Origin: Chiridota heheva
Lineage: Eukaryota; Echinodermata; Holothuroidea; Apodida; Chiridotidae
Assembly: GCA_020152595.1 (NCBI GenBank)
Contig: JAIGNY010001587.1
Coordinates: forward strand, 1,951,501-2,015,500
DNA: 64,000 nucleotides
Reading direction: 5' to 3'
Below the pieces are notes generated by a model, which was not told where the DNA came from, did no database searches, and worked only from the letters and a program-made list of their open reading frames with translations. Below are positions 17,902 through 47,276 of this stretch, one piece after another. The position numbers and the translations under genes were made by a program. Position 1 is the stretch's first letter. Every line of letters starts with the position of its first letter.

Positions 17902-17905
17902 TTAA

Positions 17906-21625: not shown

Positions 21626-22061
21626 CTCTTACAGAAAAATGAGCTCGTGACGAGCTTGTGACAAGATTGTCAAAACTTTGACTAGCTCGTCGTGAGCTCG
21701 TCAATACTCAAAAGAGCTCATCAATATTTAGATAAGCTCATTGTGAGCTGGTCAAAACTTAGACCAGCTCTGGTAGAGCTCGTCAATACTTAGATGAACT
21801 CATCAAAACTTGGGACAAGCTTGTCAATACTTAGACAAGATCATCGCGAGCTCGTCAATATTTAGTTAGACGAGATCGTCGTGAGCTTGTCAAAACTTAT
21901 ACGAGCTTGACTAAGCTTAGACGAGCTCATTTTTACTTAGATGAGCTCGTTGCGAGCTCTTTAAACTTTAGAAAAACTCCTCAAAACTTAGACGAGCTCA
22001 TCACGAGCTTGTCAATATTTAGACTAGGTCGTCTAAGTATTGGCGAGCTCATCGCTGGCTC

Positions 22062-22419
22062 ATCTGAATGTCTACAAGATCGTCAAAAATATTGTTGAAT
22101 AGAAGAGCTCAATTGTCGTCATATCATTGTTATATAGAAACAAGCTTATTGCCAAAACAGTTTTGATATTGACTAGTACGTCAAAACTAAGCTTGCACAA
22201 GCTAACATTACTTTTGGATTTTGCAAGCTTGCCCAAGTTAATCTGAATGTCTACAAGATCGTCAAAAATATTGTTGAATTGAAGAGCTCAATTGTCGTCA
22301 TATCATTGTCATATAGAAACAAGCTTATTGCCAAAACAGTTTTGATATTGACAAGTACGTCAAAACTAAGCTTGCACAAGCTAACATTACTTTTGGATTT
22401 TGCAAGCTTGCCCAAGCTA
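22062..22419. repeat. 179-bp tandem duplication inside the AGCT-array element
   Basis: ATCTGAATGTCTACAAGATC begins at 22062 and again at 22241. The two copies are nearly identical through GCAAGCTTGCCCAAG. The unit carries both GAGCTC and AAGCTTGC motifs, linking the two motif types of this transposon family. Confidence 0.92.
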
Positions 22420-24581
22420 CTAGTCTGTTAGACTGCTGGAAGCAAAGCTTAACTGTATGGTTTGTTCATTGTAACTTACAATTACATTTAATTACCTGAC
22501 AGAAACAAATGTGCACAGGAAATCAATACAATATTAGCAGGTAACTGTCAGTATCTAAAAAGATAGCTTCCTGGTATTAGCTTGTACTTCCATACATGTA
22601 TTACATTTGCATAATCATATTTACCCCCCTAACCTTTAATCCTATTGACCCATATGACCAGAGAAGCAAATACAGGAACTAAACAATTACTCCGTACATT
22701 GTTAAGTACGTGTATCTCTGTTATTTTCAGTTATTTCCATTCTGTTATTTTCAGATATTTCCATAATTTTATACTCACCACATAGGCCTAAATATGATAT
22801 AATATATGGGAGAAGTATGAAGATATTAAAATTTCATTATTTTTACTATTATTTTCACTGGTTGTCACTCCTATCTGTTTGTTCATCACTTACACTCAAT
22901 TTATTACTTGCATCACTATCAAAATATGTTAGGTGCACTGCAGTGTCCTTTATTCACTTATTGTCCTAAAAACACACCTTCCAAAGTCAAAAACTTAATC
23001 CATTTTCATGCCTCAATATACTGTGCGCTGGGACCATGGCCTCCTGAATTCATGGATGCACAGTTCAGTCGTTTACTTGTAGCTTATAATTGTAAACATT
23101 TCCTCCATTCAATCTTTGTATAATTTTAAAAATACCCTTTGTTTGGTCATCCATGTTATAATTGACCTTCCATGTATTGTACCACCTTGACCAGTCTCTG
23201 AGTGATAAATTAATGATATTACAACCAATTGCAAGCTTCCATTGGAAATGAGTGTTATTTGAAAATGGCAGTTAAGCTTTGGTTGCAAGATGGAGAATTT
23301 TAAGTAGGCCAACATGTAAGTGAGATTTCATTCTTTTTATTCTCAATTGTAGAGTTGTTAAGACTGTTTACAAGGATTTTCTTCATCATGTTTTAATGAT
23401 TGCCAATCTTATCCAAATAATTTGTGGGAAGATTGTCTGTTTTGTAAGAAATTGTTCAAATCTATTAACAAGGACTCACAATGGAGTATGTGCTTCCAAG
23501 ATGGAATATGATGAGGACATTAGGGTTTGGTGGATTTAGAAAATACAGTAGTTTAATTGATTGATTGATTTATTTACTGATTGCAATACTTTAACAAAGA
23601 GCTGGTGATAACTTGAATAATTCATGACCTCTTAGCTATGGTATGTTAAACAGTGGTTGTAAGCAAATTTTTGGTTGTAAGTTCAAAAATGGATTAAAAG
23701 AAGGTGACATAAGTTGAATTAAGGGTTCCTCAGAGACCTATTTTTGGGCCTACAGTGTATCTGCATTTTGAAATGATTTTGCCTCCTTCATACAGAAGAG
23801 AAATGTATATTTAATTAACAGATTCCATGGTGTAAACTTTAAGAACTATTGCCATCAAAATATGTTTTGAAAGATAATAAAGAAAATTGTTTTATTTGTG
23901 CAAAAATATTTTAGAGTATGCAAGAAAAGATGACCTGTTAGCTATGATATATGTTAAAAGCAGTGTTTAATGAATTATCAGTGTTGAATAAGTTCAAAAA
24001 TATATTACTGACCTTATATTGTATGGACCTTATTTTATATTGTGCGACAGAAAGCCTTATTTTTGAGCCTATAGACCTATAGTTGTGTGTATATTTCCTT
24101 TCATGTTTTTTTTTCTTTTACAGAGTGAAAACCTACACAGCTATTCAAAAAAGATATTTGGTAAAGATATTTTTTTGCAAAAGTATGTTTTGAGTCACAA
24201 GAAGTGTTTTCCTTTTCAGCATGACAGTGCAAACTCATTCTGCCATTAAGGATACAATTCATTCTGCCATTTGGAAAAACTTACTTTTTTATGTTGGACA
24301 TGGAATATACAATATTCATACTTTCTAATTTGCGAGCTCATTTTCTGATGAGCTCGTGGTGAGCTCGTTTCTTTTGAGCATGTGACAAGCTAATGTTTGT
24401 CTGGATGCACTGGACAAGTTCGCCATTTTGATAAGCTCGCCATATTGACGAGTTTGCCATTTTGATGAGTTTTTGGCCCTCGTCAAGAAATTTTGACGAG
24501 CTCGGAAAGATTCCAATTGCAAGCTCATTGTGAGCTTGTTTTTAACATTTTAATGCGCTCGTCGCGAGCTCGCGGCAAGCT

Positions 24582-25184
24582 CGTTTGTTTGTTTGTTTGA
24601 TGAGGTCTTAACGGCACCACGACAACGAAGGTCAAATTGTGCCTGAGAGGTCAGATCATTTTAGAGGTAGTAAGGAAAGAGACCAGGGGAAGAATGAGAG
24701 AAATTCAAGAACAAAAGCCAGAAAGCTGTGATCGAGAGAGGAGGTGCATGGGTAAAACTAAAAACAAAGTAGAGAGGGGGTGGAAGAGGAGAATTAAATA
24801 TGGTTGTAGAGGGAAGCATGCTGAAGGAAGGAGACTATTTTATCTGGAGGATTTTTTTGGAAGAACTCAGCAATTGAGTTGTGGGAGCGAGAGAAGCTCT
24901 GGGAAGGTTGTACAGGGGGCAAGCAAGGAGAACGTGTTGGATTGTGAGGATGCAGTGGCAATTGTTACAGAGGGGTTGGGGAACCAATAAGGAGGTGGGA
25001 GTGAGTGAGGTGGGTGTGACCAATTCTAAGACGGGTAATATGAACGTTGTCGTCGAGAAAGGTTGTTGATGGTGGATTTGATCGGGATTGTGGGCTGGAT
25101 AACATGGAGTTTGTTATCAATTTGGAAGTTCCATAAGGTTTGCCAGCGGTCACGAACAAGAGAAGCGATAAGCGGTTTGATGTC
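24582..25184 (-). mobile_element. 5'-truncated LINE insertion, copy A
   Basis: The 3' end of a non-LTR retrotransposon, oriented minus, with a (CAAA)n tail (plus-strand GTTTGTTT) followed by TGATGAGGTC. It is nearly identical to the start of the copy at 42488. It lies inside the AGCT-array element. The host bases at 24561-24584 are repeated exactly at 25182-25205 (24 bp, the first three of which may belong to the LINE). This is the hallmark of target-primed reverse transcription. Relative to the 42488 copy it lacks two bases in the ORF and has other small differences, so the RNase H-linker frame is broken. Confidence 0.9.
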
Positions 25185-25419
25185 GCGAGCTCGCGGCAAG
25201 CTCGTCAAAGAGGTTCAATACGAGCTCATAATGAGCTCGCAAATTCTGTAAGGGTTCTAAACCACAGACCTATAAAAAAAATGATGCCAACAGTATTCTG
25301 AAATGATATCCATAAAGGTCAATTAATGTATTAACATGAATATAAAGATACCATTATTTATTACTTATTAAGCAAATACTGACATTTGTGGGGGGGGGGG
25401 AGGGGAAGGGGGCGGGCGC

Positions 25420-25735
25420 TGCTCCATACTTCAGTGGTAGGTATGTGCCGCCCAAGATTCAAACTCATACCTGCAGTATGAGTTTAATGGTAACTGCAGT
25501 ATAAGAGCAACAATTTTTTACACCTGACCTACGAAAATGTGTGATTTTTTTATACCTACAATTTGAATTTAAACAATGTTTAACACCGCAGTTTAAAAAT
25601 ATGCCATTTTCCAGACCTGCAATATGATTGAATTGGGATTTTTGATACCGGCTTTATAAAAATTATGAAAAAAGGCACCTTCTCGGGCCGCACTTTACAT
25701 GTACCTCACCTCACATATGGAACTGGGCCCCCTGG
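25420..25735. repeat. CTGCAGTATGA-motif dispersed repeat, copy 1
   Basis: Degenerate short repeats of CCTGCAGTATGA, spaced about 30-45 bp, end in GGCACCTTCTCGGGCCGCAC and ACATGTACCTCAC. The same motif and order recur at 38585, 57430 and 61385. The near-palindromic CTGCAG core and unrelated flanks point to an interspersed element with an internal tandem region. Confidence 0.55.
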
Positions 25736-25764
25736 GACTGACATGCCAGTCAATAACTGCAGCA

Positions 25765-26147
25765 GAAGCGACGTTATTAGCATGTGACAGACTTACTGGT
25801 GATGTATATGTGATGCGATGTTATTAGCATGTAACAGACTTACTGGTGATGTATATGTGAAGCGATGTTATTAGCATGTAACAGACTTACTGGTGATGTA
25901 TACATGAAGTGATGTTATTAGCATGTAACAGACTTACTGGTGATATATATGTAAAGCGATGTTATTAGCATGTAACAGACTTACTGGTGATATATATATG
26001 TGATGCGATGTTATTAACATGTAACAGACTTACTGGTGATATATATGTGATGCGATGTTATTAGCATGTAACAGACTTACTGGTGATGTATACATGAAGT
26101 GATGTTATTAGCATGTAATAGACTTACTAATGATGTATATGTGAAGC
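25765..26147. repeat. 47-bp minisatellite, about eight copies
   Basis: Units carry GATGTTATTAGCATGTAACA then GACTTACTGGTGATGTATAT and GTGAAGC. Copies vary by TATATGTG/TACATGAA and by a few insertions. It lies in the putative PDE4 intron about 0.4 kb from the candidate first exon. Confidence 0.93.
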
Positions 26148-26530
26148 TGATTTATTGGAAAGAGATACCCTTTAAAAAAAAATCCTTGATATGTAACAAA
26201 TATTAATTTATTAATACTATGTAATTTGGGTAAAAAAATCACATGTGGTATGGTGGGTAATGCGGGTATTTTGCATCCCCTTCTCAGTTAAGGTTACAGG
26301 GATGTTCATGTCCATTTGATAAACCAGTTATGATGCACTGGTGAAAAAAGACCCAAAGAGAAATGAACCCAGGACCTGGGCGCTCTCCAACATTTATAAT
26401 AAAGATTACGAAAGATAATATATATCGTATGAATATCAAAATATTATCTTAATCATAATGGTAACAAAAAAAGGTTTTCCAATCATTTAAAATTAATTTA
26501 AACGATGGATGATTTCACTAATATACCTAC

Positions 26531-26748
26531 CCCACACAAAATGTTGGGTGACCAAGAACATACATAGGCTCTGAAAGTTTCCTCAAACGGACTCGATTAT
26601 TTTTGTTTGATGACCTCTGTTGAAATCCAAGGTCGGTAAGTTTGTTACTAGGTAAAATATGGCGGGTGACAAATTCATCATGGAGGGATTTAGTACCTCT
26701 CCCTTTCTTCCGACTCTTGTGAGAAACATTGTTATTGTTGCGTATCAT
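26531..26748 (-). CDS. PDE4: Candidate PDE4 isoform-specific first coding exon
   Basis: The open frame begins at the ATG at 26746-26748, with an in-frame TGA 33 bases upstream (26779-26781) and A at -3. It encodes 72 codons plus two bases: MIRNNNNVSHKSRKKGRGTK first, then DEFVTRHILPSNK, RVRLRKLSEPMYVLGHP and TFCVG. The frame is followed by the donor GTAGGTAT (26523-26530). Its trailing GG joins the leading T of the UCR1 exon to give Gly followed by FDMENG. Long PDE4 isoforms use unrelated, often basic or Ser/Arg-rich, first exons spliced to exactly this position, so a divergent N-terminus is expected. The evidence is frame, phase, donor and gene order; the peptide itself matches nothing I recognise. 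It could instead be an unrelated open frame. Confidence 0.55.
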
Positions 26749-28419
26749 TTTTATATTAATAGTTGTCGTTTCACTCCGTCAGAAAAATGATATTCCACAT
26801 TAAATTCCCATTGCGTTGTCAGTCACTGTCACACGCTATATCAGGAACATGATATGTGTTGGTCTTAATTCTTCTCAGCTGATTATATGGGCTTAATTCC
26901 ACTTTGTGAGGGAAAAGATGTTTTCCAAGTTTGCAGTTTTTAATCTCAGGAAATTACCACACAATAACTTCTCTTCCTGGCAGTTGAAGCAAAAATCTTA
27001 AATATAAGTCAGCAACTCAAATGTATATATGCTTGCAATTATTCACAGATAATGGTACAGAACACAAAATATGAAATAAATCACTGATGTTCATGAAGAT
27101 GCATAAAGAGTACTGATTAAAAAAAGACAAGTTCTACCAGCAGAAAAATGCCACTCCTCGTCACACTACTTATTGATTTTCAAGTTGAAAATGCGGTAGG
27201 AGTTATGATACACAAAAAAATGTGTACTTTCTTTTCAGAAAAGAAAGTCAATTGAATAAAAGAAACCAATCAATTCCATTAAAATTATGATCAGCAAATT
27301 GTTAAATGGAGAAATAGAAATGAGTCTAAAATGAGAGTGAAATACAAGTTAAAGCATGATAATCTCTGGATATCTTAAAATATTTGATAAATTTTGAAAA
27401 AGCAGACACACTTTTATGAAATTTTCCCCCAAATGGAATTTTGATTTTTAATTTACATGTAGTCATATATACTCAAAAATCTTGCTTTATTGATGGTGAT
27501 TATAGATTAAAAGCTTAAATCTGTAAAAGTGACTGGTTTATCACACACCCACACTGGAAAATGATATCATGCACACACACTAATGTCTTATTACAAAAAT
27601 TATGCAACCTATTAAAAATGAATTAATTCCTAGCGAAAGTGACAGCTTTCTGAGGAAATGTGAGCTCCCTTTCAGCTGATACGAATTCCTGTTATTACTG
27701 TCATTATTAGAAATTCAAGAATGATTTTAAAAGCAATTTGTAAGTGATAGATATTGCTGGATGTTTTCCTTGCCACTGTGATTTATTATCCACTCTCATT
27801 TTTGATGTAAATCCTATACCACAAAATTCCTGCTGAACTTGAGTGTGACTATACTTCCACAAAAACAAACATGAAACAAAACTTGAAATCCAAATGGCAG
27901 AAATAAGTTAGGACTCGCAGAAATACAAATTCAAAATATCTCGTTTGTTAACAAATTTCTAAATCAACATCCTGAAAATATGAAACATACAGTAATGCGC
28001 AGATAAAACTCATACTTCAGTAAGAAACATTTGCTGCCACTTTGTGCATTAAGAAAACTGCCAAAGGAGTGTGTACCCAGTCAAATTGCTAGGATTTAAA
28101 TAACGGAAAGGAATCAAGTTCTTTAATTTGGCCAGAAATCTAACGGCTGTCATAACAGTCCACTCGCATGAAGCAAGTGCTTCTTCAAAATAGCAGGTTC
28201 AAAAGCAAAGCTCTAGGGTACAAAATTGCACAAGCACTAAGAGAAACACTTTTTTGATGAGAACATGATGGGTATTATTCCTTTTCCTATAATGGCGATG
28301 AGCGACAGGTAACAAAATCAAGCTTTACCTTCAAGTACAGACCATTCAAACAAAATAAGCAACTCCTGACTTATTGACAGAAGATATAATGAGTACTTTG
28401 TCATCAATGATCTCACTGA
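26749..28419. other. Upstream of the candidate first exon, no promoter identified
   Basis: The sequence upstream of the ATG would hold the 5' UTR and possibly a promoter. I see no CpG-rich block, no convincing TATA box at a usable distance, and no transposon end. The sequence appears unique and AT-rich. Confidence 0.3.
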
Positions 28420-28690
28420 TAGGATTAGTTCAGTGGTAATGCAAGCAAGTTAAAGCTGATTTGAAAGAAGACATGGTGACTACACAACTTGAATATGTCA
28501 TCCTGCCCAGGTGATATTTAAGTTAAAAGGAATATTCCCAGGAATTTTCATTTTCACATATGTCATGGAGGACTATAATAGAGAAACAAATTCCTAAACC
28601 ATGATGATATCCGATTCTGTTTTGGTGTTATAGCATACCAGCGTTTTGAAAATTGCCCTAACTGTCTTAAATCTGATGTCATACTTGCAG
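28420..28690. repeat. Fragments of two TTAA-family repeats
   Basis: AGGATTAGTTCAGTGGTAAT (about 28421) resembles the left end of the 17261 family. It is followed by TTAAAAGGAATATTCCCAGG (about 28524), which resembles the left end of the element at 30111. The order is the same as at 29524-30551, but both pieces are short and decayed. Confidence 0.5.
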
Positions 28691-29523
28691 ATCTTAGACA
28701 ATTTTTAACGTATTTCTTAAAAAAAAAAAAATATATATATATATTTTCCTTTTATTTAGAGTGTAAGATACATTAGAAAGAAAAAAACATATTTTTGTAA
28801 TAACAATGTATATCTCAATTGAACAAAAGTTTCCACACTTCATCTCAATAATTGAACAAAAAAGTTTCCAATTATTGAGAAAGAGGCAATTAATTTTAGA
28901 AAAATAAATAAACAATCTTTCTTGGATCTGCAATCATTACATCACACTTCACACAGCAAGGTCATTTTTTACCATGCGGGCGAATATCTTGCAATGTAAT
29001 AACTCAAAATTGAGTCAGGCGCAGGTCCCCTCACCCCCCTTATTCTATGTCTGATAAGAGTGTAATAAATTGGAATGGATCAACATTTACTGTAAGTACC
29101 ATCAAATGGTTTGATGTAGCGCAGGCTGCGCAGCTAAAGCCAAATTCTTTATTTGTTTTTGTAGAATTCGATCAAACACAAAACCACCAGCTAGATGGGA
29201 GTCGTAGTCAATCAAGGACCGTAAAAAAAAAAAAAAAATATTCACAGATTTACAAAGAGATCTTTCATAGACATTATTCTGTTCATTAATAAAAGCTCTG
29301 AACATATCAAAAATTGAACCATTTAACAGCTTTTTGAATTAATTCAAGAAAATAAGCAAATTTGTTGCATGAGAATTTATGGACCAAACTCAGAAAGGAA
29401 ATTGATTAATAACTCCTACTACTACCATAAAGAATTTAATGTTCTTTCAAGAATAGTTTCCAATAGGTGGCATAGTGCTACTACTACAAACAACAACAAC
29501 AGTGCATTTCACGTATTTGACAA
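28691..29523. other. No gene seen, A-tracts
   Basis: Contains two adenine runs (28719-28731 and 29223-29238) and a short TA run. No recognised exon. Confidence 0.4.
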
Positions 29524-30106
29524 AGGATTAGTTCAGGGGTCAAGTAAGTCCACCTTATAAGTCCATCTTATAAGAAAGAGTACTTCAAAGAAACAAAATG
29601 GTGAAAAAAGCATTCACAAATCTTATTCAGTTAAGGAGATACTAAAGTTTGAAGTTTGGTATCATTCATGTAGAAACGACTAAGATCAGACTAGTTGTGA
29701 TGTCATAGCCTCAGATTCCTCAGTCTATGTATCCTATCATATTTTATCCTTCGATTTTGTGGCTTTAAAACCATGGAATATTTCAAAAAGTTGTAAAACT
29801 GAATCTAGTAATGGTATTTGTAATATAACACTTGAAGAAAGTTAGAGGAAAAATTATTTAAACAGTGAAAAATGTACATTAAATTTTCTTTAAAATACAT
29901 TAATAATTGTTAAGAATGTGAGGATGAAGATGCCAACTTTCCATAGTAGACTTACTACACCAGTCATTTCTACACAGAAAAGACAGAGCTTTAAACTTGA
30001 ATATGTCCTTTACAGAATAATTTTTTGAACACTTTGTTCACCATTTTGTTTCTTTTGATGATCTCTTTCATGTAAGATAAACTTGCATGACCACTGAACT
30101 AATCCT
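29524..30106. mobile_element. TTAA element, AGGATTAGTTCAGGGGTC family, copy 2
   Basis: The left end AGGATTAGTTCAGGGGTCAA matches the 17261 copy, and the right end is its inverted counterpart (GAACTAATCCT). Interior landmarks are in the same order: a TCTTATAAGAAAGAG segment, GAAACAAAATGGTGAAAAAA, TGTAGAAACGACTA and, after the centre, TTTCTACACAGAAAAGACAG. TTAA is present on the right (30107-30110). The left TTAA is decayed (GACAA). No protein. Confidence 0.75.
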
Positions 30107-30110
30107 TTAA

Positions 30111-30551
30111 AGGAATATTCCTATGGATTTTCATTTTTTCATATATGATAGAGAATTTTTTAGAATCAAAGTGGTGAAAAACCTACATTAATATCTTATT
30201 CCGTTTAACAGTTTAGAAGTATTTTTGAATTTATACAAAAGTGACTGATTGGGCAACATCTGTGATGTCATAGAGACAATTTCAACAAAACATCTTTTGT
30301 ATTTCTTTAAAAATGATTTGGATTTTTTATCATTGTAAATGTGATGTATGTTTTCTTGTAAATTATATATTTCACTTTATCTATATAATGAACCAAAAAT
30401 GCTGTTCCATAATGTTAAAAAAAGTGTGATTAAATTTATTAGAAATACATAGGAACTGTGCTGGAATTGCCTTAATGACATTACCAAGCTGAAGGACATA
30501 TACAATACTCTACGAGGTGTTTTTAAGAACATTTTTTAGCTCAATATCCCT
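30111..30551. mobile_element. TTAA element with AGGAATATT ends
   Basis: It starts AGGAATATTCC directly after TTAA at 30107-30110, and ends ...AATATCCCT before TTAA at 30552-30555. The reversed right end reads AGGGATATTGAGC. The interior is AT-rich and includes GTGATGTCATAG, a motif also present in similar sequence near 54340 and 56395. The left TTAA is the same four bases that end the neighbouring element. Confidence 0.6.
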
Positions 30552-33250: not shown

Positions 33251-33789
33251 ACACTTAAAACTTCTAAATGGAATAATATATTATATTAAGATCTCATCAA
33301 ACCTAAGATCTAGCTAAGGAAATGAAGCATTATAATCAGACATGCTGTTTTGTTAAAATCTCTTTCATTTGAAATGTTTCTGAAATTCTGTTTCACAAAT
33401 TTTTGCTTTAGCAATAGCAGTATACATTTGAAAATGCCATATGTTAGTGAGGGTACATTTGATACCAAGGAAAAAAACAATATAATGATAATCACTCACT
33501 GAGCCCTAAATGGCAATTTGGTTTTCTCCAGAATAATGTGTTGAGTGCATGCATATACTCAAAAAATGAACTGAAATTACCTGCATGGCTTGTATACACC
33601 TTCGAAACTCATTTTGCCTGAAGATGTATCAAATCTGTAACCGTTACCAGAGTAGAAAAGCAATTTAGCAGCAATGTTGTGATTGGACAGTTTTAATGAG
33701 AAAAACAATGACAGCATAATGGATCAATCAAAGTTTCAACAATTAGAGAGATTTCTTCTATTTTTGTACAAAACCATTTAAACAAAACA
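33251..33789. other. Central spacer of the palindrome
   Basis: About 540 bp between the inner ends of the two arms, AT-rich, with no visible symmetry and no recognised gene. Confidence 0.6.
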
Positions 33790-35985: not shown

Positions 35986-36583
35986 TAGTACATTAGTAGA
36001 AGTGCTTATGCTATTTTAACTTTGGAATCATTTTTTCAGTGTATACTAAACTAATCACCTGAAAAATCTCCTAATCATCAGAGGGAGGAGGGAAGAGGGA
36101 GCTTAAGGTTCAACCTGAGACTGCAAACCACTACCAAGACATCTACGTAGGCCTTCTTTAACCAAGCTGCAACTGTGGTCGCTGGGTAACCAAAAAGGGG
36201 CAAAAAAGAAATTCAAACAGCTTGAAGGAAAGAACCTATATTGTTTCATTATTGCCAATAACCCCTAATATTTGCCATGTTCATAAAACAGTAAGAGAAT
36301 TGTCTTTTGCTGGTACACTTTGTGTTGGCTTCAATTTGCTTTTCTTTCAATATTCTCCTGATTTTAAGGCATAATGCAAAGAGATCTAGACCTTCCTGAT
36401 TCTGAATCTGTAATACTGTGAAAAGGTATTTATAAAAATTGTTAACTCAGGCATTCAGTTAATCAAATCCAAACCAAACAGGAAGCAATACAAAGAATTG
36501 CATTTTTTAATGTACAATTTCATATATGATTTAAAGGAAAGAAATGTATCATCCTAGAATGAGCGCCGCCGAGCTGAGAACAT
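35986..36583. other. No feature seen
   Basis: Unique-looking DNA between the palindrome and a small hairpin. No exon recognised. Confidence 0.4.
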
Positions 36584-36722
36584 CACTTCCAGTTGTCAAT
36601 TTTCCTTATTGATTGCAAGAAATCTGTTTTATCATCGATAGCTCCTGTGCAGTCTGGAAGATGTGTGATCGATAACATTACAGATTTCTTGCAATCAATA
36701 GGAAAATTGAAAACTGAAGTGA
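36584..36722. repeat. 60-bp inverted repeat hairpin
   Basis: The left arm has TTGATTGCAAGAAATCTGT and then TATCATCGATA. The right arm has ATCGATAACATTACAGATTTC and then TTGCAATCAATAGGAAAATTG. The arms pair over about 55-60 bases with few mismatches around a loop of about 20-30 bases. The flanks (ACTTCCAGTTG and AACTGAAGTG) also partly pair. No poly-T or protein context assigns a function. Confidence 0.8.
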
Positions 36723-37899
36723 CCGTTTTCAGCACAGGAGCATTTACTTCTGAGTGTATTTAGGGGACGATACCTTTTCTACAAAATAAAAAGATGAAAA
36801 ATCAACACAACATTCAACACCCAGGGGCCATCAAGACGTTCATGACCTTCTTCAAAAACCATCACTAGATAACCCCAAAAAAAGAGACTTTAAACTTGAT
36901 TAAGCAACTTAGCAATATAGTCATATTTTAAATTGTTAAGTAGGCTACTGCCTTAGCTGTTTGGCTTTTTTATTTTTATTTGATCTGCCCTTGAATTTTC
37001 TTATTGCTGCAAGTTGCTTTGAGCCACATCCATAGAGTGGTAGGTTGATAAAAGGACTTGTCTTATTGCCAGTGATGCTGCAGGTGACAAGTCTGTGATG
37101 AATAAATGAATATCTCTAGATGCAGTCGGTGTAATATTCAGATCTCAGTCATAAGAATTTTTATTTTTTAAAGTGAATTCCTAACTTCAGTTGCTATGAT
37201 CCAGAAAAGGAATAAGAAGGGGGATCTTAGGAGGGTAGTAAAGCTTGGGGAACATTTAAAATTGAATGGTTTTGGAAATTATGAATGCTTCAGTTACTGG
37301 ACAGCATTTCTAATTAGATGATTTTCTTCTATAAGCTATAAGCTATTGAAAACTGAACAAAAACAATGGTCATTCCTATTTATTTTATTGACAAGATTTA
37401 GAGAGGTGGGGAGGGGGGAGGGGGATTTGATACCCTGCACCACAGATGTGTACCTTGTATCATACTATATGACTGTAGTATAATTGGAAAATATTAGGGC
37501 CTACTGTTAAAAAGCTATACTTAACGAGGAATAACATTAGCTATTTGTTTTAATAATCTTTTGAAAATCATGTGTAGAAGCGAAAAATTTGATTAAAATA
37601 GTTGGTTTATCTAAACCAGCTATTCTATTATTCTAAGACCTAGATATGTGCAAGAAAATCTGCAAAAATCATCACTTGGGTTGATATCCCAACTAAGCAT
37701 GTAAATTCATTGTTTTCATCCTATTCCAATATAGTTTGCAGCAACACATAATGTTGGCGGCGGCCAAGTGGAAAATTTTCTCGAAAATCTACTGAATTTG
37801 TAAAATTATGCTCAAAAGTGGGAAGGACATGTCTCCCCGGGAATTACGGCCCTGTGATCAGCCACTACATATATCTACATGTATGATATGGCACACTTT
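36723..37899. other. No gene recognised
   Basis: AT-rich DNA. A purine-rich patch (GGTGGGGAGGGGGGAGGGGG) lies at about 37406. No splice-bounded coding segment is seen. Confidence 0.4.
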
Positions 37900-38341
37900 T
37901 AGGGATGCACTGGATGTCTGGGGTCTGGCTGATGGTAAAAAAAATAATTTAAAAAAATCCGGTTCCAGTTTCAGCTGGATTTGCCCCAAAATCCGGCTGA
38001 ATTATTATACAAATTTGGCCTTTTAAAAATGTTTTTTAATAAGGCTTGTGTAAACCATTTTTCCAACAAACACATTAAAATGTATCAAGCAATCATTCTA
38101 AACATTTACTTTGCAGTAAATAACGTTTAACGAGATTATTCAATCTCTTACAGCATCTTTACACCTTCTAATGAATTGTATACTTCACCTAAGATATTCT
38201 CCCTCATGCATAATTCTTTTTGTTAATGATATCTTTTTTGTAATAAAAAAAGATCCGGTCCGGCTAGAAAAAAATCCGGCTGGATTTCATCTAAGATCCG
38301 TCCAAATCCAGTTCCACAAATTTGGATCTGGTGCATCCCAA
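37900..38341. mobile_element. Non-autonomous hAT element (TAGGGATGCAC ends)
   Basis: The left end TAGGGATGCACTGGATGTC pairs with the reversed right end TTGGGATGCACCAGATCCAA. The 8-bp flanks CACACTTT (37892-37899) and TACAGTTT (38342-38349) agree at 6 of 8. Subterminal AAAATCCGGCTGGATT-like motifs occur near both ends (37960-38000 and 38250-38300). TAGGGATG termini are common in hAT elements. There is no transposase. Confidence 0.78.
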
Positions 38342-38584
38342 TACAGTTTAATACAAGCAAAATAAGTTTGTTACAGCTGAATCTTAAGGGTGTATGAACA
38401 CAAAGCCAAGACATACATATAAGTCAATACTGCTTTTATACCTTAAACATTGTAAAAATATTTTCCAACAAGTTGGTGATGAATGACCAGCCAAACTGCT
38501 TAATTTCTGAGAGAGCTGCTAGCATGCGATTAATTAAACATCCAACATTTAATACCAAAATTTGTAAGGGTTTAGCAAATATTG

Positions 38585-38815
38585 CAACCAAGCTTTCCGG
38601 GGCCCACTTCATACTAAAAGTGTGTGGGCCACCAACCAAAAAACAAACCCGCAGTATGACAGATTTTTTGGCAACTGCAGTATGAAATTATACAATTTTG
38701 ATACCGGCAGTATAAGTATTCAACAAAAATATTGTAAAAATTGACCTGCAGTACAAAATCAACAGAGTAAAGCCTTATTCTTTGGGACCTGCACTATGAA
38801 AATGATTAACAGACA
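38585..38815. repeat. CTGCAGTATGA-motif dispersed repeat, copy 2
   Basis: Landmarks in order are CATACTAAAAGTG, CCACCAACC, CCGCAGTATGACAGATTTTT, ACTGCAGTATGAAATTATAC and CCTGCAGTACAAAATCAACA, then GGGACCTGC. The same order is found at 57455-57690, which shows a dispersed family rather than chance simple repeats. Confidence 0.75.
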
Positions 38816-38830
38816 AAAAAAAATTCTTCA

Positions 38831-39925
38831 AACAATACAGTTAACCAGTCAATACAGTTAACCAGACAATACAGTTAACCAGTCAATACAGTTAACCAGA
38901 CAATGCAGTTAACCAGACAATACAGTTAACCAGACAATACAGTTAACCAGTCAATGCAGTTAACCAGACAATGCAGTTAACCAGACAATGCAGTTAACCA
39001 GACAATGCAATTAACCAGACAATACAGTTAACCAGACAATACAGTTAACCAGATAATACAGTTAACCAGTCAATACAGTTAACCAGACAATGCAGTTAAC
39101 CAGACAATACAGTTAACCAGACAATGCAGTTAACCAGACAATGCAGTTAACCAGACAATACAGTTAACCAGACAATACAGTTAACCAGTCAATACAGTTA
39201 ACCAGACAATGCAGTTAACCAGACAATGCAGTTAACCAGACAATGCAGTTAACCAGACAATACAGTTAACCAGACAATGCAGTTAACCAGACAATACAGT
39301 TAACCAGTCAATACAGTTAACCAGACAATGCAGTTAACCAGACAATACAGTTAACCAGACAATGCAGTTAACCAGACAATGCAGTTAACCAGACAATGCA
39401 GTTAACCAGACAATACAGTTAACCAGACAATACAGTTAACCAGACAATGCAGTTAACCAGACAATACAGTTAACCAGATAATGCAGTTAACCAGACAATG
39501 CAGTTAACCAGACAATACAGTTAACCAGACAATGCAGTTAACCAGACAATACAGTTAACCAGACAATGCAGTTAACCAGACAATACAGTTAACCAGACAA
39601 TGCTGTTAACCAGATAATACAGTTAACCAGACAATACAGTTAACCAGACAATGCAGTTAACCAGACAATGCTGTTAACCAGATAATACAGTTAACCAGAC
39701 AATACAGTTAACCAGACAATACAGTTAACCAGACAATACAGTTAACCAGACAATACAGTTAACCAGACAATACAGTTAACCAGACAATACATTTAACCAG
39801 ACAATGCAGTTAACCAGACAATGCAGTTATCTAGACAATACAGTTAACCAAACAATAGAGTTAACCACATTATAGTTTAACTAAACAAAACAATTAACCA
39901 AACAATGCAGTTAACCAAACAATTG
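38831..39925. repeat. 17-bp satellite, about 62 units
   Basis: The unit is CAGTTAACCAGACAATA. Two positions vary between units: CAATA versus CAATG, and CAGAC versus CAGTC. The array decays at its right edge (after 39830). Runs of the G form and the A form alternate, which looks like higher-order duplication inside the array. The unit contains GTTAAC, a perfect palindrome. It is not a multiple of three and encodes nothing. Confidence 0.97.
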
Positions 39926-40005
39926 ATATTATTATAATTTGTGCATGAATATTATAAATAGTGGAATCGATCTTTTGATGATGTTTGTCCTACTATTTGC
40001 TTAAA

Positions 40006-40370
40006 TGTTTGTTTGTTTGATGAGGTCTTAACGGCACCACGACAACGAAGGTCAAATTGTGCCTGAGAGGTCAGATCATTTTAGAGGTAGTAAGGAAAGA
40101 GACCAGGGGAAGAATGAGAGATATTCAAGAACAAAAGCCAGAAAGCTGTGATCGAGAGAGGAGGTGCATGGGTAAAACTAAAAACAAAGTAGAGAGGGGG
40201 TGGAAGAGGAGAATTAAATATGGTTGTAGAGGGATGCATGCTGAAGGAAGGAGACTATTTTATCTGGAGGATTTTTTTGGAAGAACTCAGCAATTGAGTT
40301 GTGGGGAGCGAGAGAAGCTCTGGGAAGGTTGTACAGGGGGCAAGCAAGGAGAACGTGTTGGATTGTGAGG
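40006..40370 (-). mobile_element. 5'-truncated LINE insertion, copy B, with perfect target duplication
   Basis: A 365-bp 3' fragment of the same LINE as at 42488, with the (CAAA)n tail at its left (3') end. ATTTGCTTAAA stands just before it (39995-40005) and again just after it (40371-40381). It differs from the 42488 copy at only a few bases over the shared stretch, so the family was active recently. Confidence 0.95.
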
Positions 40371-40381
40371 ATTTGCTTAAA

Positions 40382-40979
40382 GGATAATAATTTCTGCCAT
40401 TGTTTGGTTAGGATGAACAATATTCGCAACAAATCTTTTGACCAACAACAAATGTTCCCCCGAGTTTCCCCTAGCTATAAATATCCAACAGCACGCAATC
40501 CAACAACAACAAATATCAGTGAAAAGTCCGACAAAATCTGTCCATGCTGCAAAAACATAATTTAACACTACTAACAGTGAAGCTCCAAGTTGATTAATGG
40601 CAAACCCAGATTAGTTTTTTACCAAAAAGCAAATCGTGGTATTTACAATAAGGTTAACAAACATATAGCGCAATCAACTGGTACAACGCAATCAAGTGGT
40701 ACAACGTGTACAAATATTCAACTGTACTGAATCAACAGTTCCATTGTTTAGTTTAATCAAACAATTGTGTATACACTACTCGTTCACTTTCACCATACTT
40801 TCATTTGAAATTATAATCAAAGACTACAAGGTACAGCAAGCAAACCTAGCTTGGTAAAATACACTAGTATTTCTACAAATTGAAATTTTAATAAAGTTAA
40901 AATTATGTTCAGTTCAAGCTTTAAACATTTTATCAGTGTAACTTCCTTCAGACTCCCCCTCAGAACATTCTCTCTCATT
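40382..40979. other. No feature seen
   Basis: Unique-looking sequence. The 40299-40565 frame starts in LINE sequence and reads into flank, so it is not a gene. Confidence 0.45.
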
Positions 40980-41328
40980 GAGCGTGTTCTCACTTGAGAG
41001 CCAGCTAGCGATCTGCAGGCAATCAGATCCGCCAAGTTTTTACCGTGAGAACGCTCACCGGATCTGATTCCAGTCACTTGATCCTAGGCGAGGGTAGGAT
41101 CATGATCCAGAGCAGGCAATCAGATTCTCAAGAAATGTGTGGACCCAAATCAGTAACCCTGAATTATTAGGTACATTAATTCCAGCTTGCTTGTCTCGCA
41201 ATCACATCCCCTGCAGCGGATCTGATCGCGAGCTTGAGCTCATATGAGAACACAATTGTTTCTCCTACAATCATCGTTTATGGTTATCATCCGTGGATCG
41301 TGATCCGGAGACAAGTGAGAACATGCCC
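40980..41328. mobile_element. MITE with GAGCGTGTTCTCACTTG ends
   Basis: The left end GAGCGTGTTCTCACTTG pairs with the reversed right end GGGCATGTTCTCACTTG. ATT lies outside both ends (40977-40979 and 41329-41331). Inside are several CAATCAGATC and GATCCGG motifs in both orientations. No protein. A 3-bp duplication would fit Harbinger-like elements, but ATT is not their usual target, so the superfamily is open. Confidence 0.65.
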
Positions 41329-41550
41329 ATTATCAACAGCAATTCCCAACGGTGGAGAGCATAAAAGGAAAAGAAGAGGCAGTCAAATTGCTTTTTAATA
41401 TAAGAAAACACTGTAGGATATACTGTTGAACGCACCATGGAGATCGCATCAAGCATGTTTTTTATAACATCCTCCAAAACACAACCACAGGCAAACATTT
41501 TTTAAGGATTAATTTCAACAGCAATGATGGTTCCAAGTCAAACATTTTAA

Positions 41551-42247
41551 CCACTTAACTGCGTACGAGGAATATGTCCGTCATCCCTTAACTTTACACT
41601 ACTGTGTAAGACGGACATATCTGTCTTATAATTTATGCACCAAACTACGTCACATAAAACCTGAGGAATCTCTGAAAAACCGTTTACTGTGCACAGCAAA
41701 TATACTAGTTGCCTATTACCTTTACGCTAATGCGTAGGAGGGACGTATACGTCTTTATACTTCATGCATTCATTGATCAAGTTAAAAAAATGACGTAAGA
41801 TCTGTGGAATAACAGAAAGATTGTTGGCTGTGTTACGCTTAGCTTACAATCACTCACAAGTTTCTGTTTTTTGTGTATGGGCCACGTGGCTATTATTTCT
41901 TGGGGAGGAAGGTTATCTATGAGTAAGGATCTGTGAGAAACCACTTTGTACTTCACCTTGCTTTAAAATTTATCACACAAAGCTTGACTTTTCTACAAAT
42001 GTGAAATAAGTTTGGATGGTAACGTTGTGAAAGCTGAGCAAAAACTATACAAACAAAAGTTACAAAAAGTTTGATTTACTTGAATTTATTTTAAAGAAAA
42101 CCAAGAAAATTTTTTTGTAGTAAATATTTTTACAGTTCATCATTTTTCCAGTGTAAAGTTAAATTTGGCAAAAAAGAGGAATTTTTGCAAAAAATTAATT
42201 ACGCAATGAGGTAAAAATTACAATATTTCAATTCCGCAGTTAACTGG
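41551..42247. mobile_element. piggyBac-type MITE (CCACTTAACTGCG ends)
   Basis: The left end CCACTTAACTGCGTACGAGG follows TTAA (41547-41550). The reversed right end is CCAGTTAACTGCGGAAT, followed outside by TTGG, a decayed TTAA. Internal motifs such as GACGGACATATCTGTC and GACGTATACGTC are palindromic. No transposase frame remains. Confidence 0.6.
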
Positions 42248-42418
42248 TTGGTTGATGGAAAGGGATCGTCTCATGAATACATGCAAAAAAGAGTAATTTA
42301 TGCAAAAAAGAGTAATTTTTACAAAAATTAATTACGCAATGAGGTAAACATAACAATATTTTAATTCCGCAGATAATTGGCTAAAGGAAAGGGATCGTCT
42401 CATAAATACATGCACATA
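42195..42418. repeat. 133-bp tandem duplication over the right end of the MITE
   Basis: AATTACGCAATGAGGTAAA recurs at about 42198 and 42331. Both copies run through ATTCCGCAG, AAAGGGATCGTCTCAT and AATACATGCA. The duplication therefore includes the element's right end and its flank, and it happened after insertion. Confidence 0.85.
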
Positions 42419-42487
42419 ACATTCTTTGTATCTATTTACAAATTCACTGAATTTAATTATCTTCCACATAGTTGTGCAGCATATAAA

Positions 42488-44372
42488 GTTTGTTTGTTTG
42501 TTTGATGAGGTCTTAATGGCACCACGACAACGAAGGTCAAATTGTGCCTGAGAGGTCAGATCATTTTAGAGGTAGTAAGGAAAGAGACCAGGGGAAGAAT
42601 GAGAGAAATTCAAGAACAAAAGCCAGAAAGCTGTGATCGAGAGAGGAGGTGCATGGGTAAAACTAAAAACAAAGTAGAGAGGGGGTGGAAGAGGAGGATT
42701 AAATATGGTTGTAGAGGGATGCATGCTGAAGGAAGGAGACTATTTTATCTGGAGGATTTTTTTGGAAGAACTCAGCAATTGAGTTGTGGGGAGCGAGAGA
42801 AGCTCTGGGAAGGTTGTACAGGGGGCAAGCAAGGAGAACGTGTTGGATTGTAAGGATGCAGTGGCAATTGTTACAGAGGGGTTGGGGGGAACCAATAAGG
42901 AGGTGGGAGTGAGTGAGGTGGGTGTGACCAATTCTAAGACGGGTAATATGAACGTTGTCGATACGAGAAAGGTTGTTGATGGTGGATTTGATCGGGATTG
43001 TGGGCTGGATAACATGGAGTTTGTTATCAATATGGAAGTTCCATAAGGTTTGCCAGCGGTCACGAACAAGAGAAGCGATAAGCGGTTTGATGTCAGAGAG
43101 GGTTTTTGGAAAAGGGGAAGGGAGGAGGTTACGGGCAAGCTTAGCGGCTGTATCAGCCCTGTCATTGCCAGGGATGCCAACATGGCTGGGTATCCAGAAG
43201 AAAAGAACACTTTTCCTGCAGAGGGTGGGAGAAAAGAGTTTCCGGAGGAGGAGGTGGCAGGTGAGGTTATCCCATTTAAGATTGAGTAATGAAGTAAGAA
43301 CAGCCTTTGAGTCAGAGAAAATGGCAAAGTGACTAAGAGGAGAGTACTCAATAAAGTTGAGGGCGAGGAGAATGGCCTTAGCCTCGGCTGAAAAGATGGA
43401 TGAGTGGTCAGGAAGTCTGCTACTGAGGGTGATGTCTTGGATGATGGCAGCAGCAGCTGTCTTGTTGCCTTCCTTGGAGCCATCAGTATAGATGGAGGTG
43501 TAATTTGAGAGTTGGTCTTTGATTTGGTTGTGGAGATTGATGAAGAGATTAGGGTGAGTTTGAGTTTTGTTATAAGTGGAGAGGTCTAGGTGGACAGAAG
43601 GAAGGGGGTGGCCCAAGGCGGAAAAGTGGGCCAGGAATAGGTGCCGAGAGTGGCGGGGTTGATGCCAAGTTGAAAGAGGTCTGATTTAATGCGTAAGCTG
43701 AAGGGGGCGATAGGGTTTTAGTCCTATCAAAGAGGGAGGAGAAATTGGGGTACCTAATGAGGTTGTAAACAGGGTTCTGGGTGTTGGTGAGGACTCTAAA
43801 AGCATAGGAGAGGCTAAGCTTTTTACATCTAAGTAGAAAGGGGGTTCGTTGGCTTCAACATGAAGGCTAGTGATTGGGGAGGTCCTGTAGGCTCTAGACA
43901 AAGCCTGAGGGCTTCATTTTGGATGGTGTTAATGTGGTTGAGGTATGAGTTGTGAGCGACACAGTAAACAATATTGCCATAGTCAAGCTTGGCACTAATG
44001 GTGAGCCTGAAAATTTTGAGGAGAGCATATGTTCGCTCCCCAAGTAGTGTTGGAGAGCAGTCGGAGGAGGTTGAGGGAGCTATTGCATTTTAGTTTCAGG
44101 TTGGTGATGTGTGGCTTGTAGGTGAGCTTGGGGTCTAGAGTTAGACCAAGGAACTTTGTGTTTTCAACTTTAGGGATGCGATTCCCATTGAGCACAAAGT
44201 TCGGGTTGGGGTGGAGGTTGTTGAAATGACAAAAGTGCATGCAGACTGTCTTGTCTTTGGAGAATCTAAAACCGTTATTGTTGCTCCAGACTTGCAGCTG
44301 ATTGAGGCTGGTTTGAAGCCTATTTTCAACAATAGGAAAGCTAGGGGAGGAGTAGAAGATGGTGATTGTTTG
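42488..44372 (-). mobile_element. 5'-truncated LINE (I/Jockey-like), longest copy
   Basis: The minus strand runs from a break inside the reverse transcriptase to a (CAAA)n tail. The break falls just downstream of where the catalytic YADD box would be: the first recognisable residues are ITIFYSSPSFPIVENR. The RT tail follows: VCMHFCHFNNLHPNPNF, NTKFLGLTLDPKLTYKPHI, LLSNTTWGAN and SAKLDYGNIVYC. Next come an RNase H domain and a Cys/His motif. The RT part is split by frameshifts (44000, 43700) while the RNase H part stays open. No clear target duplication is visible at the truncated end. The catalytic RT domain and the endonuclease are absent. Confidence 0.9.
42699..43616 (-). CDS. LINE ORF2 C-terminus: RNase H plus Cys/His motif
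   Basis: A 305-codon open frame in the C-terminal third of a non-LTR retrotransposon polyprotein. RNase H removes RNA from RNA-DNA hybrids during reverse transcription. The acidic active-site set is complete: Asp in YTDGSKEG (about residue 45), Glu in SAEAKAILL (about 77), Asp in FSDSKAVL (about 100), and His plus Asp in WIPSHVGIPGNDRADTAAK (about 143-155). Near the end, CNNCHCILTIQHVLLACPLY gives a Cys/His motif typical of this polyprotein end. The ATG at 43614-43616 is internal to the original polyprotein, so it is not a natural start. Fragment status means it is not expected to act alone. The family is sure; the clade (I, Nimb or Jockey with RNase H) is inferred. Confidence 0.85.
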   Translation of the reverse strand: MGHPLPSVHLDLSTYNKTQTHPNLFINLHNQIKDQLSNYTSIYTDGSKEGNKTAAAAIIQDITLSSRLPDHSSIFSAEAKAILLALNFIEYSPLSHFAIFSDSKAVLTSLLNLKWDNLTCHLLLRKLFSPTLCRKSVLFFWIPSHVGIPGNDRADTAAKLARNLLPSPFPKTLSDIKPLIASLVRDRWQTLWNFHIDNKLHVIQPTIPIKSTINNLSRIDNVHITRLRIGHTHLTHSHLLIGSPQPLCNNCHCILTIQHVLLACPLYNLPRASLAPHNSIAEFFQKNPPDKIVSFLQHASLYNHI

Positions 44373-45389
44373 TTTAAAAATGTTTCATTCTGTCATAGCT
44401 GTCATCAGGAAAACGTCCTATACATAAGTTCAGGAGTGAACAATGTCGTGCTGGTAACGTCACTTACAATGTTCAATCGCGATCGATAAGAAAGCTTGAA
44501 TACTTCTTATACATTAAGTCTAAACCTCGCAATACATTTTGTGTCTTAAGCCCCGACAAAATCTAAAATCTGTCAGGGTCTATATTGCTCACAACAGAAA
44601 CCACAATCCAGCACAAGCAATTACACAAGGGATTTCCACACACTTCATCTCACTTTCCCTGGTCATAATCTGACATTGATAGTAAACAAATTGCACTGCA
44701 GCTGCACTGACTTTCACACTCAACACATGGACAAAAGTATTCCCCTGTGGTCAATGTGTCTGGCTTAAAGTAATAATTTACAAATAGGATGGTATTTAAC
44801 AATGAAGGTTTTGTTCCTTTATTGAGGAGTGATTTTAAGTGATGTTTTTGTTCAACCTTGTAGGCTTTTGAGGATTTTGGACTGAAAATCCATTGCAACA
44901 GATATCCATAATGTAATAAATTACAATAACAAATTTTCTCTTAAGTTTCTGCCCACAGAGACGACATAACAAATTTGCATATTTTCTGATATAATAGCTC
45001 TGGAAATTCAAAAGCTTGAAATTGGCAAAATTGAACCAATTTTGCTACTGTAATATTCAATATTTTTGGCAAATTAAAAAACCAAATAAACGAAATGAAA
45101 TGAATGAAATATAAATCCAAAAATGTTGTACTTATGATTTACAGTGGAGTTTAACTTTATAAGGATATCTATGTTGTACAGTCCATTCTTCCCTACCCCT
45201 ACCAGCCCCCCTCCCTATCCTTACTTGAAAATAGGAATTTAGGGGGAAATAAACAATTGATATATGGACAGACATATTTAGGGCAAAATCACAATAAGTA
45301 TTTTATGGCTCAAAAAATGTGGAAAAGCAAAAGCAAGGGTCATACCACCATTATAAATTTACTGTTAGTTCGCCAATTTTCTTACCAAT
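44373..45389. other. No feature seen
   Basis: Flank of the LINE and unique-looking AT-rich DNA with no recognised exon. Confidence 0.4.
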
Positions 45390-46379
45390 ATGAATGAAAT
45401 TTTGACATCTGCAAGAAAATCTCATTTAGTGGAAAATCCATTCACCCTAGATAATATTAGGCCCATACACACCTGTGGCTACAGCTGGATCTTGGATAAT
45501 TTATTGCTTAGATGCAGAGCCTAAAATTAATTAAAACAATGTGTGATCAATCATTACATCACACAGCCTGACATCGTAATACAATTTGCAACCAAAGACG
45601 GCCTCCCAATTCACAGTTAAGTAGGCCCTCGCAGCTGTGCGCTTATGCAAACTTTCACTAAAGGTCATTACTGCCATAAAACATGCAGCAATATTTACGC
45701 GACCTTTTTCTAGGAAGGTGAGAAATATACTCAGGGATTTTGGATAAATATGATTTGTAAGAATGTGCATCGGCTTGCGAAATTTGAATTATTGATAATT
45801 TTACCTCCCAGTTGCCCAACGTTGGCTGAAAATAAATGCAAATGAGAAAATTTCAACACAACCTTACAGAAATTTTAGCTTGCAGCACGCTTGCAGCACG
45901 CTTGCAGCACGCTTGCAGCACGCTTGCAGCACGCTTGCAGCACGCTTGCAGCACGCTTGCAGCACGCTTGCAGCACGCTTGCAGCACGCTTGCGACAAGC
46001 TTAACAATTTCTAGCTTGCGCAAGCATGCGCAAGCTTGCACAAGCGTGCTACAAAGCTTGTGCAAGGGTGCTGCAAGCTTGCAGCAAGCTAGTATTTGGA
46101 ACAAATATAAGCTTGCGCAAGATAGCATAAAAAGCTTGCAAAAAGTTTCTCTAGCTTGCAGATAAGTTTTTGCTAGCTTGAAGCTAAAAATTGTTAGCTT
46201 GTCGCAAGCTTGTCGCAAGCATGCTACAAGCTTGCTGCAAGTGTGCTATAAGCTTGCTGCAAGCATGCTGCAAGCTTTCTGCAAGGTAATATTTCTGTAA
46301 AGGAACTTGACAAATAACAAGCATCACCAGCAATGAAAACTGATTTTAAACTTGTAAATCATTTTTCCTCTTTTCTCAT
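45390..46379. repeat. Duplicated segment, copy 1 (carries an insertion)
   Basis: ATGAATGAAATTTTGACATC through TCATTTTTCCTCTTTTCTCAT matches 46738-47276 at roughly 95 percent by eye. The match is interrupted only by the 442-bp element at 45862. Both copies contain a 79-codon minus-strand frame of similar sequence (MHILTNHIYPKSLSIFL and onward). That simply follows from the duplication and is not good evidence of a gene. Confidence 0.92.
45862..46303. mobile_element. Small CCTTACAG element made of GCTTGC arrays
   Basis: The left end CCTTACAGAAATTTTAGCTT pairs with the reversed right end CCTTTACAGAAATATTACCT. Inside are about ten 11-bp units (GCAGCACGCTT, 45885-45990). A field of AAGCTTGCGCAAGC-like palindromes and GCTTGCAGC motifs then runs to 46285. 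The duplicate at 46738-47276 shows the empty site: CACAACTTGAC there corresponds to CACAA-element-AACTTGAC here, so AA (or AAC) was duplicated. No protein: the 109- and 121-codon frames here are repeat-encoded. It shares its ends and AGCT-centred palindromic content with the 21626-25254 element. Confidence 0.8.
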
Positions 46380-46737
46380 TCTCAAGATCAAGAAGTGAGG
46401 AAAAATGTTTCAAATTGGACAAATATGTATTCAGCTGGAGGGCTTCAGCATTATGTTAATCAAAATGGCCTAAATCATCCATTGCTTCATGGCAAAAGTA
46501 TCATGAGGTCACATTAGATGAGCTAGCTTTGGGCCTGTGCATTTTCCTTGATGTAAAAGGTTTCTTCAATTTCCTCCAGTTCTGTTGAAGGTATATTGAC
46601 CAGTAGAGATTTTTTACCAACTTGAGAGTATCAAATTCTGAGCAGAACAGTCTTTAGGTGGTTGCAATAGGAATTTTAGTTTTTTAAGTCATGACAAATC
46701 GATGTAAAGTTTTTCAGCATATGCAAAAAAGGAGAAA

Positions 46738-47276
46738 ATGAATGAAATTTTGACATTTGCAAGAAAATCTTATTTAGAGGAAAATCTATTCACCCTAGAT
46801 AATATTAGGCCCATACACACCTGTGGCTACAGCTGGATCTTGGATAATTTATTGCTTAGATGCAGAACTTAAAATTAATTAAAACAATGTGTGATCAATC
46901 ATTACATCACACAGCCTGACATCGTAGTACAATTTGCAACCAAAGACGGCCTCCCAATTCACAATTAAGTAGGCCCTCGCAGCTGTGCGCTTATGCAAAC
47001 TTTCACTAAAGGTCATTACTGCCATAAAACATGCAGCAATATTTATGCGACCTTTTTCTAGGAAGGAGAGAAATATACTCAGGGTTTTCTGATAAATATG
47101 ATTTGTAAGATTGTGCATCGGCTTGCGAAATTTGAATTATTTTACCTCCCAGTTGCCCAACAATTGGCTGACAATAAATGCAAATGAGAAAATTTCAACA
47201 CAACTTGACAAATAACAAGTATCACCAGCATTGAAAACTGATTTTTAACTTGTAAATCATTTTTCCTCTTCTCATG
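46738..47276. repeat. Duplicated segment, copy 2 (empty site)
   Basis: This is the counterpart of 45390-46379 without the inserted element. It preserves the pre-insertion sequence TTTCAACACAACTTGAC at about 47194-47210. The 358 bp between the two copies is unrelated to either. Confidence 0.92.

Follow-up and report, generated by a model that had tools for sequence, protein, structure and literature searches.

Elements A and B and their shared ends

The 64,000-nucleotide stretch of Chiridota heheva (Echinodermata, Holothuroidea) DNA analysed here (assembly GCA_020152595.1, contig JAIGNY010001587.1, positions 1,951,501 to 2,015,500 of the forward strand; hereafter the window, with positions counted from its first base) holds two elements, A and B, which had been predicted from the letters alone to be transposons with CYTTACAG ends and bodies of AGCT-centred palindromes. 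Both are discrete insertions of a multicopy family, with common ends over different interiors and without a recognisable gene. Element A begins CTCTTACAG at 21626 and finishes CTGTAAGGG at 25254, with TT on both sides and imperfect inverted ends of ~20 bp; without a nested fragment of a long interspersed nuclear element (LINE), it runs from a left array through a 179-bp tandem pair and a 1.9-kb middle to a right array. Element B begins CCTTACAG at 45862 and finishes CTGTAAAGG at 46303, and its terminal inverted repeats (TIRs) of ~40 bp differ by five mismatches and one gap. The terminal TTACAGAAA is common to A and B. From genome copies, we read the family ends as CCCTTACAG...CTGTAAGGG; the common ends of the original prediction were real, but CYTTACAG gives way to CCCTTACAG as the family end.

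B is an insertion. A local duplication (95%) takes in its flanks, and the second copy, at 46735-47285, is without the element; 451/468 aligned bases are identical to the left flank of B and 68/73 to the right. Comparison of the filled site (CAACACAA / CCTTACAG...CTGTAAAGG / AACTTGAC) with the empty site (CAACACAACTTGAC) yields a 2-bp AA target-site duplication (TSD), though B taken by itself would also allow a 3-bp AAC. A 3-bp AAC/GTT duplication suits only A and B and was dropped, as further copies give 2 bp, and a TA target of the mariner kind, with TTACAG read as TA followed by CAG, was ruled out by the empty site. Two elements with common ends and a 2-bp duplication are thus present as had been claimed, with both pairs of ends located and flanks of TT and AA, the latter established by the empty paralogue.

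Most of the body of A is conserved middle, and the LINE fragment interrupts the right array; a body made of arrays, as predicted, holds for B and fails for most of A. AGCT occurs 31 times in the left array of A (mean 8.0 and maximum 17 in 300 first-order Markov copies) and 11 times in the right array (mean 2.3, maximum 7), and the commonest 6-mer of these arrays is GAGCTC (20). In B, the 17 occurrences of AGCT exceed the window-wide rate (1.9) and are not in excess of Markov copies of B itself (mean 12.5, maximum 23); its marking 6-mers are GCTTGC (19) and AAGCTT (10). The predicted mixture of both motif types at 22060-22430 is borne out by the 179-bp tandem pair, GAGCTC-type and B-type motifs both occurring at 22062-22430. 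Compared with the B-type consensus, a stretch of this inner left arm of A reaches a score of 58, where shuffles reach at most 35; the scores of four further copies are 35-49 (shuffle maxima 30-35), and that of the outer array of A is 29. Across the window there are eight left-type and four right-type end strings, and by our own reading AGCT-dense stretches are bounded only by the A and B pairs.

Neither the nested LINE (24585-25181) nor the conserved middle (22431-24326) figured in the original prediction. The LINE recurs in the window at 40006-40372, 42488-44384, and 54793-55944, with a PF00075 RNase H domain at 42699-43685 on the minus strand, and some of its copies are 98-99% identical, which suggests that it was active recently. 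The family consensus of the middle has a single CpG in 1923 bases and the arrays are rich in CGAGCTCG-type sites, a contrast that may possibly reflect methylation history.

Table 1. Coordinates of elements A and B and their parts in the window.
Feature	Position	Strand	Basis
TSD TT, left copy of A	21624..21625	.	sequence; 2-bp rule from genome copies
Element A, ~3.6 kb (~3.0 kb without nested LINE)	21626..25254	+	ends, TSD, multicopy middle, ends in relatives
Left end of A, CTCTTACAGAAAAATGAGCTCG (family form CCCTTACAGAAAAATGAGCTCG)	21626..21647	+	sequence and relatives
Outer part of left array, with palindromes of GACGAGCTCGTC type, spacers of CAATACTTAGA type, and an AGCT centre ~every 10.4 bp	21640..22060	+	
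179-bp tandem pair, GAGCTC and B-like AAGCTTGC motifs mixed	22062..22419	+	matches B-type consensus
Conserved noncoding middle of A (1896 bp)	22431..24326	+	genome matches; consensus without open reading frame >108 aa
Right array, first part; family unit GAGCTCGCCATTTTGAC, 17 bp	24327..24584	+	
Nested 5'-truncated LINE fragment	24585..25181	-	24-nt duplication, 24561-24584 = 25182-25205
Rest of right array, with right end CTGTAAGGG of A	25182..25254	+	
TSD TT, right copy of A	25255..25256	.	sequence
TSD AA, left copy of B	45860..45861	.	
Element B, 442 bp: 40-bp TIRs, AAGCTTGC-type palindrome array	45862..46303	+	
Perfect 11-bp tandem GCTTGCAGCAC x 10.5 inside B; missing from four B-type relatives aligned	45878..45993	+	
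TSD AA, right copy of B	46304..46305	.	
Paralogous copy of flanks of B with empty site, AA at 47202-47203	46735..47285	+	

Copies, target sites, and interiors across the genome

The genome (1.1 Gb, 3744 contigs) was then searched for relatives. The pattern TTACAGAANNNNNNNNAGCT gave 253 matches against 89 for a reversed control, and eight loci retrieved with it comprised four compact array elements (L004, L007, L009, L011) and four that were otherwise. Nine further loci were picked for string likeness to the compact elements, yielding eight members and one discard (L070, 48% identity). The resulting 12 B-type members are ~300-390 bp long; measured against L009, identity is 77-86% for the remaining 11 and 75% for B itself. 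For the A type, the right-end string CCCTTACAGAAATGGNGAGCT had 90 exact matches and its reversed control 0. With the middle of A (1896 bp) as query, 149 first-look candidates were found, and the 40 of them that were scored gave 68 matches, corresponding to ~40 places, A included. Thirty of these loci were retrieved (A and 29 others at 76-89% identity).

Arrays occurring independently of the ends had been named beforehand as a refutation; at the loci examined, the two travel together. By our own reading, a recognisable outer end is kept at 22/30 retrieved loci with the middle. In a survey of A and 20 further copies of the middle, drawn from the 21 that scored best, AGCT arrays adjoin it in 20/21 copies (left 15, right 16, both 11); L047 has neither array by the survey rule and L055 is missing the left one. 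Array length ranges from none to ~1.3 kb. That the ends should recur as pairs had been set beforehand as a test of the prediction: both ends were located at 21 loci, nine of the A family, counting A itself, and 12 of the B family (B left out), and the flanks match at 14 of them. We conclude that the transposon family is real, and that it is multicopy, modular in build, and non-autonomous. It shares with miniature inverted-repeat transposable elements (MITEs) the presence of TIRs, a TSD of fixed length with an empty site (the empty site for B only), and multiple copies without a transposase.

The 14 loci with identical 2-bp flanks outside the 9-mer ends are 6/9 of A type and 8/12 of B type, with L004 scored as a match on the border seen in the alignment of B-type relatives, its automated border being off by one base. 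Mismatches were found at L044, L045, L060, L007, L064, L066, and L068, of which L066 and L068 would become matches with one terminal base lost. When right flanks were swapped between loci, the mean was 3.8/21 and 14/21 was reached in 0 of 20000 trials. The duplicated pairs are TT (6), AT (4), TA (2), GC (1), and GT (1), with the AA of B additional, and this mixture argues against a target restricted to TA or to AT.

These copies also bear on whether A is a single unit. It could instead be two small elements, the left and right arrays, around unrelated host DNA: the right block is bounded by a 16-bp perfect inverted repeat (24327-24342 / 25230-25245), and CTGTTAGA near 22430 looks like an end. 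We find this hardly credible, as the order left array, middle, right array recurs, with both arrays in 11/21 copies, and the outer ends share one TSD in 6/9 loci; it was set aside because whole copies recur.

Other interiors lie behind the same ends. Of eight A-type ends hand-picked from the 90, one belonged to a 105-bp mini-element, one to the A family, and six to a second interior. In C272, the only one of these units that was followed further, the second interior is unrelated to the middle of A. Over 700 bp, three loci are 99.7-99.9% identical in the second interior, and the remaining three show 93-97%. After 6 kb, the C272 unit terminates in a B-like array and CTATAAGGG; a single unit can therefore bear both types of end, A and B. 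Four of the six loci (L074, L075, L076, L078) have a near-identical outer flank, which at the C272 locus matches an internal segment of the C272 unit at 93-96%; as the flank is common to four loci and resembles an inner part, the second-interior unit may be an amplified composite. A 17-bp tandem of TCTCCAATATAGGCCTA type, ~50 units long, lies inside the second interior (L074 and L079 joined, positions 1329-2222).

We then examined coding content. No Pfam match at or above cut-off was found in seven of the 26 listed open reading frames (ORFs) of A, two of the seven having one weak sub-cut-off match each, or in 10 ORFs of the C272 unit and its surroundings (eight in the second interior, two beyond its end). 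A consensus of the middle, built as the majority of 18 sequences (A and 17 copies; L054, L059, and L061 removed by a length filter), has 93% mean agreement and a longest ORF of 108 aa. A spurious ORF over the array of B had no match in a protein collection at E 0.001. These results agree with the claim that neither element encodes a protein. The longer, transposase-bearing member that had been suggested did not turn up in the second-interior unit or among the copies examined, which we take to be non-autonomous; the second interior (L074/L079 unit) was rejected as an autonomous partner, its sole ORF of at least 90 aa being array DNA. An end pattern had three matches in viral contigs, with 7-8 AGCT per 600 bases and no repeated units visible, which is chance level by our own estimate. 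A literature search with the end strings returned no transposon title among the matches listed.

Array geometry and possible roles of the arrays

With a probability of roughly 0.6, we read A and B as non-autonomous cut-and-paste transposons of one end-type whose arrays act as repeated protein-binding sites. One transposase, encoded elsewhere, would recognise the common terminal 9-20 bp, and the subterminal palindromes would offer repeated sites to it or to a partner protein, presumably bound as dimers on AGCT-centred sites. More binding sites would improve capture by the enzyme, and better capture would favour expansion of the arrays via slippage or unequal exchange, with new interiors coming to be flanked by the same ends. 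Support comes from the empty paralogue of B, the 14/21 flank matches, the 90 versus 0 right ends, the arrays beside the middle, the B-like module in A, the six of eight ends with another interior, and the phasing of left arrays.

Spacing differs between the two ends, at ~10.3 bp on the left and 17 bp on the right. AGCT-to-AGCT steps in left arrays are mostly 20 (83), 11 (80), 10 (50), and 31 bp (34), and in right arrays 17 (171), 11 (35), and 23 bp (18). Phase was tested in 13/15 left arrays (without L043 and L052; A by its outer part only) and 13/16 right arrays (without L050, L051, and A). The best period of left arrays was 10.0-10.5 bp in 12/13, the exception being L060, and in 11/13 none of 500 random placements equalled the observed fit at 10-11 bp (L056, 28/500; L060, 19/500). 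The AGCT centres of B have a period of 10.9 (2/2000 random sets as good). The right array of A is also unphased at 10-11 bp (378/2000 random sets as good).

Several results weigh against the binding-site reading. Phasing at 10-11 bp was found in 0/13 right arrays, which have a 17-bp unit, and the whole left array of A is less regular than its outer part (5/2000 versus 0/2000 random sets). Helical phasing is therefore not general, and the right arrays argue against such a rule. Units of 10, 11, 17, and 20 bp would come to be spaced in this way through plain slippage, even if they did nothing, and in the right unit AGCT is conserved at 0.90-0.94, against 0.85-0.93 at 9/13 other positions, which leaves it only slightly ahead of its neighbours. 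For the A type alone, 6/9 flank matches were reached in 496 of 20000 swaps, a weaker result because most A-type flanks are TT or AT, and the C272 unit is flanked by AT/TA, with no 2-bp match. Since no transposase or autonomous copy was found in the ORFs of A, the middle consensus, or the C272-unit ORFs, the common enzyme is something we infer.

It is possible, if less probable, that the transposons are the same and the arrays are passive, minisatellite-like expansions inside the ends that arise when palindromic DNA slips during replication, and take no part in binding. Array length is very variable between copies, some lack one array and L047 both, unit length differs between the two ends, and the perfect 11-bp x 10.5 expansion in B is missing from four aligned relatives, all of which speaks for this reading. 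Binding to one face would need phasing, yet duplication of 10-, 11-, and 20-bp units also makes phasing. Against passive arrays, the AGCT core is found in two unlike units (GAGCTCGTC and AAGCTTGC) and at both ends. Bases around AGCT are also complementary at 245/475 sites versus 212 expected from independent columns, and one step further out at 284 versus 262 (15 chosen arrays); this mild excess is inflated by related units and could be explained by their relatedness. A function for the arrays is, in sum, plausible rather than a result.

The arrays might alternatively act as DNA structure, with whole-element foldback or cruciform extrusion driving excision or replication-linked transposition. 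Folding of B as single-stranded DNA gives -163.8 kcal/mol (z -13.1 versus shuffled sequence), the outer left array of A has z -9.9, and in B and four B-type copies 77-83% of the aligned part is self-complementary. Such a role for structure nonetheless seems improbable. The left and right arrays of A are not mutual inverted copies (20/11/10/31-bp versus 17-bp steps), so one long hairpin is impossible for A, and 2-bp TSDs suit a DDE transposase.

Relation to known transposons and significance

Foldback likeness, raised in the original prediction, applies to B and its kin, in which the whole element is an imperfect inverted repeat, and only loosely to A, whose arrays differ in unit and period. 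Long inverted repeats of short tandem repeats, the mark of the foldback group, are seen in the five B-type elements compared. Among modular systems, the TU elements of sea urchins are foldbacks with short tandem repeats in their arms and an 8-bp TSD, longer than the 2 bp here. Galileo belongs to the P superfamily and has a 7-bp TSD, and neither fits the A/B family. En/Spm elements (CACTA, CMC) carry arrays of short sites near both ends that are bound by a transposon protein.

The nearest functional parallel is the Drosophila virilis foldback Tetris with the MITE DAIBAM, a pair likewise presumed to share an unknown transposase; those elements have 8-10 bp TSDs and ~220-bp repeats, whereas the A/B family has 2 bp, palindromic units of 10-31 bp, and other ends (PMC4079207). 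The same source cites sea urchin foldbacks, describes most foldbacks as seemingly Mutator, and reads the tandem repeats in Galileo TIRs as extra binding sites for the transposase (THAP), resembling the role proposed here for the arrays (PMC4079207). By the yardstick of Tetris, the 2-bp TSD sets the A/B family apart from foldbacks of the Mutator kind. CMCT elements have 2-5 bp TSDs and mostly 5'-CA..TG-3' ends, unlike the CCC..GGG of the A/B family (CCCTTACAG..CTGTAAGGG) (PMC12730594). Tc1/mariner-type elements in general duplicate TA, and PHIS as a whole 0-4 bp (PMC10045372); ISL2EU duplicates AT, and other PHIS groups have their own fixed sites (PMC4482050). In the A/B family, TA accounts for 2/14 and AT for 4/14 matching TSDs. 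By these descriptions, no group compared fits a mixed 2-bp TSD with CCC..GGG ends outright, and PHIS at large is possibly compatible by TSD length.

More doubtful is the proposal that this is an undescribed superfamily, with a mixed 2-bp TSD and CCC..GGG ends, in which transposase would load onto AGCT arrays with end-specific geometry (helical phasing on one side, 17-bp spacing on the other) and the arrays would form a portable dock, so that gene-less interiors could be mobilised and swapped. The present results do not prove a new superfamily.

The window holds other repeats. Another repeated element lies at 17358-17905 and 29559-30110, the pair being 79% identical with inverted arms of ~148 bp, and long tandem arrays at 38832-39923 and 57916-59447 have units of 17 and 33 bp. 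An ORF with DUF4371, a domain that we take to be hAT-related, lies at 5302-6615; its best protein match is from the nemertean Tubulanus polymorphus (64% identity over 65% of the query).

The 2-bp non-TA duplication and the CCC..GGG ends point to a transposase that is a target for identification. To our knowledge, the idea that site number sets mobility has rarely been testable within one family. If the arrays are binding sites, the copies would form a natural series, from none to ~1.3 kb, for how the number and spacing of sites set mobility, as has been suggested for Galileo and Tetris (PMC4079207). Passive arrays, on the other hand, would make the family a clear example of minisatellites that start from the ends of transposons.

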